Shown here: positions 2,761 through 5,197 of the stretch, one piece after another
Numbering within the stretch: position 1 is the first letter of the stretch
How the letters are laid out: every line of letters starts with the position of its first letter
Source: Ruminococcus sp.
GTDB lineage: Bacteria; Bacillota; Clostridia; Oscillospirales; Ruminococcaceae
NCBI GenBank assembly: GCA_029055625.1
Contig: JAIDCY010000148.1
Span: 1-64,000, forward strand
DNA length: 64,000 nt
Reading direction: 5' to 3'
The notes under the pieces: generated by a model
What the model was told of the DNA's origin: nothing
Seen by the model: only the letters and a program-made list of their open reading frames with translations
Database searches by the model: none
Translations under genes and position numbers: made by a program

Positions 2761-5025
2761 TTAAATAACGCCTGGGTCATCGCCACCGCTGAGGTCTATT
2801 TGTGGTTCGTCGACTACCGGTGGAGGTTCTGTCACTGCCGGAGGGTCAGTATATACAGGTTCTTGTACAACCGGAGGGTCAGTAACAACAACAGGGGGGT
2901 CAGTGATTACCGGTTCTTGAGTAGCCGGAGGGTCAGTAACAACAATTGGTGGGTCTGTGACAACTGGTGCCTGAGTTTCCGGCGGATTGGTATATACAGG
3001 TTCAGTTTCTGCTGATTGTGCCTGCGTTGTCACCGGTGGGTCTGTATATGGTTCTGTATACTGCGGTTCTACCCACTGGCTTACTGTTTTTTTCGTAGTT
3101 TTTTCTGTTGTCTCCTCGTAATCGTATGACTGTTCAGTAGTATATTCCTGAGTTGTCACCTGCTCCGGTTCGTCGTATGATTCTGAGGTTTCGTAATCCT
3201 GAACAGGCGGATTGCTTATATACAGATTTTCGCTGTTGGTTGAAACGCTTTCGGAGTAGTAATATACGATAAGTTTCTTGCCGTCCTTGTTGCTGAAAGT
3301 ATCGCCTGCCTTTACGTCCTTGCCCTCTACCTGCAAGCCTATTACTACATTAGGATTTACTTTTTTATCGCTTTTTGTTGCGAGAATAGAATAATTTGAT
3401 ATACCGGCTTTTTTGAGTTTCGCCTGATAGTCTTTTATCTCGACGTCCTTAAACTCCGGAATTATCGCATTTTCTTTACCTTTACTTACTTTTACTTCTA
3501 TAGTAGCACGTCCGCCTATAAGCTGTGCTCCTGGTTCGATGTTCTGCCAGAAAATTTTATCCGCTTCGTAATCGTCGTTGTACTCGTATTCCGGTACAAG
3601 ATTAAAGAAATCCTTATATTTTTCCATAGAAAGTTCATAGAATTTTCCGACGAGGTCAGGCATAAGGGTATCAGGAAATTCTTCCGTAATTTCTTCCGTT
3701 TCCTCTTCTGTGTCGCCGGAAACAACGTTATCAGATACTGTTGTATTCTGTTGACGCAGTTCTGAATTACGCTGGCGGTCTGTGCGTGTATCGGTAATCA
3801 TATTTACTATGAATACCGCAATTATCATTAGTATCGCAATAAGCAGTACGCCTATTATAACCGGAACTTTCAGTCGGTCGACGGTTTCGTATCTGTAACC
3901 GGTGTTTTCATTGCCCACAGGTTCATAATAGGAATTGTTATCATAAACTTCCGGATTATTTTGTTTTTCCCTTGGTTTATCTTTTGGTTTATCCTGCTTT
4001 CTGGGTTTTGATTTTTCCGGAGTTGTATTTTTTGTAGCAGTATTCTGCGTATTCTTTGTAACAGGCTGTTCAAAGAGCTTCGTTACAAGTTCGGTAATAG
4101 TCTGAATACGGTCACAACCGGAAAGGTTCATACCGTCCATAATTATTTTAGAGACGTTACGGGGTATTTTAGCACTCAGCATACGGGGTTCGCATAGTTC
4201 GTCTTCTTTGAGCCTCCGCATGGCATCCACCGGCATACACCCTGTCAGTGAACGGTACATCAACGCACATACACCGTAAACGTCAGTCCATGAACCCTGA
4301 CGGCTGTTAGTACCGGCGGAATACTGTTCTGGAGCGGTATAACCTCTGAAAAGTTCGTATTCAAGACCGGAATCAGCAGTACGCACCGACGATATACAGA
4401 AACCTGTAAGTTTGAGTTCGCCTTTGTTGGTTATGAATACAGTTTCCGGACAAATCGCACGGTGAATTATTCCGGCGTTATGGAGTATGCCAAGAGTAGT
4501 AAAAAGCGGTGGGAATAGTTTTGAAATCTGTTCCCAGCTTAATTCACCGGCGTTATCCTTGAGATAGTCCAGCATACTCACGCCCTCTATGTGTTCAAAA
4601 ACGGCGTAAGTTGTGTTGTTATCGTTGAACATATCAAGCATGGCGTTTATATTCGAGTTGTTACGCAGATGTGCCAGTGACTTGTTAAGCTCGGTAAATT
4701 CCGCCATAAAAGCCTTATACTTTGCGAGGCTTTCATAATTTACGTTTAAATTCTTTTTGTTTTCCGAACGTGTGCAGAGATTCACCGGCATATATTCTCT
4801 TATCAGAACAGTGCATTCCGTTGACGTATCATGGGCGGTATATGTAGCCCCTTCGCCGTTATATCCAAGCAGAACGCCTATGAGGTATCTTTCATGAAGC
4901 ATAGTTCCGGGTATCAGATATGCAGGGTTTGACGGTGTATTTTCAGCGTATGCACATAACGGACATATAGAAAGATTGCTGTCATAACGTTTCATGCATC
5001 TGTAACATATTTTACGTTCTCCCAA
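2761..5025 (-). CDS. Zinc-ribbon / protein-kinase-like (predicted pseudokinase) / TM / PASTA-like protein with Pro-Thr-rich C-terminal tail
   Basis: N-terminal CYRCMKRYD..CPLC; kinase-like fold with degenerate VLIR, HRA and GFC motifs; TM segment VPVIIGVLLIAILMIIAVFIV; two PASTA-like units; (V)TDPP repeats at the C-terminus. Confidence 0.85.
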   Translation of the reverse strand: MGERKICYRCMKRYDSNLSICPLCAYAENTPSNPAYLIPGTMLHERYLIGVLLGYNGEGATYTAHDTSTECTVLIREYMPVNLCTRSENKKNLNVNYESLAKYKAFMAEFTELNKSLAHLRNNSNINAMLDMFNDNNTTYAVFEHIEGVSMLDYLKDNAGELSWEQISKLFPPLFTTLGILHNAGIIHRAICPETVFITNKGELKLTGFCISSVRTADSGLEYELFRGYTAPEQYSAGTNSRQGSWTDVYGVCALMYRSLTGCMPVDAMRRLKEDELCEPRMLSAKIPRNVSKIIMDGMNLSGCDRIQTITELVTKLFEQPVTKNTQNTATKNTTPEKSKPRKQDKPKDKPREKQNNPEVYDNNSYYEPVGNENTGYRYETVDRLKVPVIIGVLLIAILMIIAVFIVNMITDTRTDRQRNSELRQQNTTVSDNVVSGDTEEETEEITEEFPDTLMPDLVGKFYELSMEKYKDFFNLVPEYEYNDDYEADKIFWQNIEPGAQLIGGRATIEVKVSKGKENAIIPEFKDVEIKDYQAKLKKAGISNYSILATKSDKKVNPNVVIGLQVEGKDVKAGDTFSNKDGKKLIVYYYSESVSTNSENLYISNPPVQDYETSESYDEPEQVTTQEYTTEQSYDYEETTEKTTKKTVSQWVEPQYTEPYTDPPVTTQAQSAETEPVYTNPPETQAPVVTDPPIVVTDPPATQEPVITDPPVVVTDPPVVQEPVYTDPPAVTEPPPVVDEPQIDLSGGDDPGVI
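2791..3050. repeat. Degenerate tandem repeat encoding TDPP/VVTDPP/VTEPP units
   Basis: Recurrent GGAGGGTCAGTAACAACAA / GGGTCAGT units in the 3' part of the kinase-like gene. Confidence 0.75.
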
Positions 5026-5197
5026 AAACTGTCCCTCCTTTTTTCTTAAATAATATAGTTACTGATTAATTTTATCATTATTCAGATTAAATGTCAACTG
5101 CCGGAGCGATAATATAATAAATTCGTCGGAATTTGTATCTGATTTGTAATCAATTTATTACCTGTCTGTAGTAATTGTGATATGATATATTATTTAA

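Follow-up and report, generated by a model that had tools for sequence, protein, structure and literature searches.

A zinc-ribbon PASTA pseudokinase from Ruminococcus, predicted to be a catalytically dead cell-wall receptor retained across its family

Gene and domain organization

The window, a stretch of 64,000 nucleotides from a Ruminococcus sp. genome (contig JAIDCY010000148.1), carries on its reverse strand a gene for a membrane protein of 754 residues, hereafter the window protein (Table 1). With a promoter-like sequence placed just upstream of it, the gene may be transcribed alone. The protein scores above the Pfam cut-offs for Pkinase (3.8e-18) and PASTA (4.5e-7), and AlphaFold2 predicted a kinase fold for the pseudokinase domain with a pLDDT of 94.9. 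The zinc ribbon has four cysteines that hardly vary within the genus and are the same in all of 52 family sequences. A predicted transmembrane helix, located by inspection, is followed by PASTA units, the second assigned by homology, which gives the layout of a PASTA-bearing membrane receptor; PASTA was found by Pfam in 38 of 38 relatives. The original prediction had described the zinc ribbon, the PASTA-like units and the Pro/Thr tail as intact. PASTA unit 2 of the window copy falls below Pfam detection, at which five homologous segments pass, and intactness says little about the tail, the least conserved region of the protein.

Table 1. Features of the pseudokinase gene and its upstream region in the window.
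Feature	Position	Strand	Basis
Pseudokinase receptor gene, 754 aa, TTG start at 5025	2761..5025	-	Open reading frame
Near-consensus sigma-70-type promoter, TTGACA-17-TAAAAT, TG preceding the second hexamer	5069..5097	-	Consensus match only
Ribosome-binding site AAGGAGGG, graded strong	5033..5040	-	Read directly
Zinc ribbon, residues 7-24, CxxC...CxxC	4954..5007	-	Cys conservation
Pseudokinase domain, residues 41-320	4066..4905	-	Pfam and AlphaFold2 fold
Altered glycine loop GYNGEGATY, residues 54-62 (GYNGEG, 4849-4866)	4840..4866	-	Genus alignment
VLIR replacing VAIK, residues 73-76	4798..4809	-	Genus alignment
AlphaC segment FMAEFTELNKS, Leu113 replacing Glu	4678..4710	-	Genus alignment
HRAICPET replacing HRDxxxxN, residues 188-195 (HRA, 4456-4464)	4441..4464	-	Genus alignment
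GFC replacing DFG, residues 208-210	4396..4404	-	Genus alignment
APEQY, activation-segment anchor kept, residues 231-235	4321..4335	-	Glu233 in 177/177
Predicted transmembrane helix, about residues 386-410	3796..3870	-	Hydrophobic stretch, by inspection
PASTA domain 1, residues 455-515	3481..3663	-	Pfam PF03793, 4.5e-7
PASTA-like unit 2, about residues 519-592	3250..3471	-	Homology to five Pfam-detected segments
Variable Pro/Thr-rich tail	2764..3249	-	2% of positions conserved at 85%

Elsewhere in the window, a 447-residue kinase-like reading frame (L008; 55411-56751, + strand) reads YQD for HRD and DCD for DFG. It is followed by a vWA-like protein, and its paralogue on contig C106 of the same genome (G000:C106, L009) by a PP2C-like protein, both names coming from sequence reading. 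The L008 locus looks like a TerY-type module.

Loss of the catalytic residues and retention of the kinase fold

The altered motifs VLIR, HRA, GFC and GYNGEG, on which the original prediction of a kinase homologue without its three catalytic motifs was based, were read again at the same positions (Table 1). Five residues were used to recognise an active kinase: the β3 Lys, the αC Glu, the HRD Asp, the catalytic-loop Asn and the DFG Asp. All five are replaced in the window protein. The losses thus go further than first described and include the αC Glu to Leu, the catalytic-loop Asn to Thr and the VAIK Ala to Leu; in the glycine loop, the second glycine is changed to Asn and the Phe at the loop tip to Glu. 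The same replacements are nearly fixed in a genus set of 89 sequences, which includes the window protein and one identical fetched copy. The Lys is changed to Arg in 87 of the 89, the αC Glu to Leu in 88 and the HRD Asp to Ala in 88, and both the catalytic-loop Thr and the NGEG of the glycine loop are found in every sequence.

Among 177 homologues, the HRD Asp is kept in none and the αC Glu in none of 176. The other catalytic residues survive in a minority (Lys in 32, catalytic-loop Asn in 33, DFG Asp in 13), and 119 of the 177 lack all five. The residues that anchor the fold are retained throughout: His188 of HRD, Glu233 of APE and Asp248 of αF in 177/177, and Arg306 in 176/176. The bilobal fold and the structural anchors of a Hanks-type kinase, namely the HRD His, the APE Glu, the αF Asp and its Arg, are therefore present in a protein whose residues predict a catalytically dead kinase. 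As the fold is predicted confidently and its anchors are invariant, with the catalytic and metal-binding sites dismantled, a protein-binding role for the domain would be the natural reading.

SelO and SidJ have unusual catalytic activities despite the loss of kinase motifs. A comparable activity, or nucleotide sensing, might be imagined here, given the retained fold and the Arg or Lys at the β3 site in 172 of the 177 homologues. However, the DFG Asp and the catalytic-loop Asn are kept jointly in a single homologue (1/177), the HRD Asp is missing from all of them, and the glycine loop and the VAIK Ala have been exchanged for larger or acidic residues, so that we consider this highly improbable.

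Conservation and selection

The dead kinase domain is the best conserved region of the protein, with 71% of its positions conserved at 85% or above in the genus set (n = 89), compared to about 25% for PASTA, 15% for the juxtamembrane segment and 2% for the Pro/Thr tail. Pairwise comparison with a simple NG86 script gave dN/dS values of about 0.03-0.06 for the domain, which are approximate, dS being high or saturated in some of the pairs. Together with the near-fixed losses in the 89 sequences and the HRD Asp missing from all 177 homologues, these values bear out the prediction of a pseudokinase. Most of the relatives that carry a name are recorded as Ruminococcus sp. or R. flavefaciens, and many of these records come from assembled metagenomes; the source genome accordingly appears to be a Ruminococcus.

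The loss of every catalytic motif could also mark a kinase gene that is decaying without function. The frame is open, however, the domain is under purifying selection, and the gene is retained almost universally, also in reduced genomes, which makes this scarcely conceivable. Local decay or an artefact is likewise ruled out by the near-fixed replacements, the low dN/dS and the single clade described below.

Distribution across the family and order

Profile matches at E up to 0.001 were found in 244 of 249 family genomes, although this count alone does not prove the dead form, since active relatives and PrkC pass this threshold as well. The five genomes without a match are 55-84% complete. Motifs were therefore read at 60 family loci spread across the ranking and, for 25 genomes with low scores, in their best hits; every readable catalytic loop was of the dead form. 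Among the 25, one genome (G114) yielded only an N-terminal fragment, and another only the part from mid-domain onward.

In a search of the class, five genomes outside the family were found to have the dead form (L180-L184), all from a second family of the same order. The remaining high scorers whose motifs were read are active zinc-ribbon kinases, except L198 and L199, and hits near 110 bits look PrkC-like, most of them having been judged without motif reading. Taken together, the dead form appears to be an old, fixed state of the whole family, retained by nearly every member, and nothing particular to the window gene.

Evolutionary origin

In a tree that omits two long-branch dead homologues, L198_8641 and L199, a branch with a support of 100/100 separates 42 dead sequences from the rest. 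Blanking of the catalytic columns, again without these two, left the support of the dead clade at 100/100, with a bootstrap not fully settled, so the catalytic columns do not drive the grouping. In a quick tree that includes both omitted sequences, they fall outside the dead clade and two changes are needed; separate losses in L198_8641 and L199 are likely but not certain. Both loci (L198, 8641-10500, - strand; L199, 457-1851, + strand) encode zinc-ribbon kinase homologues on long branches with HGN for HRD.

Descent from PrkC is unsupported by the trees. They indicate instead that the pseudokinase arose within the clostridial zinc-ribbon kinase group. The original label of a PASTA-type kinase homologue changes in that the kinase domain is nearest to PpkA by sequence and fold and belongs with the zinc-ribbon group, not with PrkC.

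Comparison with known kinases and pseudokinases

PrkC, PknB and StkP (NF033483) likewise combine a kinase fold, one transmembrane helix and extracellular PASTA domains. The NF033483 profile aligns to residues 40-634 of the window protein with 149.6 bits, far under its cut-off of 450 bits, which places the protein outside that family; it also differs from these kinases in its zinc ribbon and in the absence of the catalytic residues. The active clostridial zinc-ribbon kinases, such as two on contig C88 of the source genome, share the zinc ribbon and the kinase subtype and are the nearest active relatives in the tree, but they keep VAIK, the αC Glu, HRD and DFG, which the window protein does not. 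Active comparators are available in the source genome: a kinase resembling PrkC, and two of the zinc-ribbon type in which VAIK, HRD and DFG are all present. The C88 pair (G000:C88:3079-8923; L002, L004) stands in tandem with catalytic motifs intact, one member carrying several PASTA-like repeats; just upstream lies an FHA domain (C88:4164-4364). PpkA of Serratia (PDB 5hnv) is the best solved match to the kinase domain by both sequence and fold, and has an Asp at the HRD position of the alignment where the window protein has Ala.

Seven families are listed in a review of bacterial pseudokinases (PMC12599244); the comparison here covers ActPs3, GLW, CP1 and DYD, along with EssB/YukC. The MviN pseudokinase domain (ActPs3) is also a dead kinase fold with a link to control of the cell wall; it is actinobacterial with a hallmark deletion of the activation loop, whereas the window protein has an activation segment and APE. 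EssB/YukC is, similarly, a membrane pseudokinase of Firmicutes, described as a component of type VII secretion whose activation loop is attenuated; no YukC/EssB domain was found among the Pfam matches of the window protein at E up to 1. The DYD family, membrane-associated and partly from Firmicutes, resembles the window protein in the change of the β3 Lys to Arg and the absent αC Glu, but keeps the DYD motif and the catalytic-loop Asn, in place of which the window protein has GFC and Thr. The GLW and CP1 descriptions in the same source also do not fit (PMC12599244). Novelty is accordingly a limited claim, made against the descriptions of ActPs3, GLW, CP1, DYD and EssB/YukC in that review. The defence kinase MAD6 was rejected as well, its profile giving 85 bits where the cut-off stands at 460. 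No report of a dead zinc-ribbon PASTA kinase family was found in the open-access literature.

Proposed role and partner

The window protein is probably a signalling partner and not an enzyme. This agrees in part with the original proposal of an envelope scaffold or sensor; sequence and evolution give good support to a predicted pseudokinase acting as scaffold or sensor and not as an enzyme. Since PASTA lies outside the membrane, a wall signal is suggested as the input. Judged from the PASTA family, the two extracellular domains would touch the cell wall, with peptidoglycan fragments or lipid II as ligands. Inside the cell, the kinase fold, its shape kept and its catalytic and metal-binding residues gone, would bind another protein and regulate it or act as its scaffold, either as one half of a pair or by presenting a substrate to it; the most plausible candidate for this partner is PrkC, the canonical PASTA kinase. 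We hold this reading, of a dead PASTA wall receptor with PrkC as its most plausible partner, with moderate confidence; ligand, partner and output are all part of the proposal.

PrkC was named because six reduced genomes (0.7-1.0 Mb, three genera) have exactly two Pkinase hits each, one PrkC-like and one at the pseudokinase locus. These hits were counted by PF00069, which more distant kinases may escape, and for three of these genomes the motifs of the pseudokinase locus were read. This is co-occurrence and not binding. The same facts fit a receptor or scaffold for some other protein, for example in cell-wall synthesis or division, with PrkC co-occurring because it and the pseudokinase are both core genes: PrkC is common across the class in any case, and the neighbours of the pseudokinase gene vary between lineages. 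PrkC as the sole other Pkinase hit in the six genomes fits a pair, yet any core protein would co-occur in this way. We regard a partner other than PrkC as rather unlikely.

The gene neighbourhood, differing between lineages, names no pathway. A neighbour gene was rejected as an obligatory partner: of 179 family genomes, about 40 gave strong hits to it, and the source genome gave none. Its structural model shows only a weak resemblance to BamE/OmlA proteins. A bitopic membrane protein is often encoded directly upstream of the pseudokinase (L121, L123, L135, L137, L140, L143 and others); some copies have zinc-ribbon domains, and its predicted ectodomain is weakly BamE/OmlA-like. In R. flavefaciens relatives (L063, L072, L085 and L081, the last being the ATCC 19208 orthologue), the gene upstream encodes a membrane protein that is long and coiled, with about 775-830 residues.

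The mycobacterial MviN offers a precedent for another arrangement (PMC12599244), in which the pseudokinase would be a substrate of PrkC and an adaptor, its juxtamembrane segment being phosphorylated and then recruiting a phospho-binding protein. FHA domains are indeed present in the source genome. However, no FHA match was found in three of the reduced genomes with the pseudokinase, which speaks against an FHA switch of the MviN-FhaA type as a general rule, and the juxtamembrane segment is poorly conserved. We judge this arrangement improbable.

Returning to the wall receptor with PrkC as partner, a stronger form can be put forward tentatively, with some doubt on our side: a live PrkC and a dead zinc-ribbon PASTA kinase controlling it might constitute an old, near-obligatory two-protein unit for wall sensing throughout this family of gut Clostridia.

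Implications

As generic profiles score these dead proteins above the Pkinase cut-off, annotations of gut genomes are prone to call them kinases. If the proposal is true, a large family of gut bacteria would depend on a non-catalytic receptor for its wall signalling, and the small genomes that combine a single kinase with a single pseudokinase make the role of a bacterial pseudokinase directly testable.
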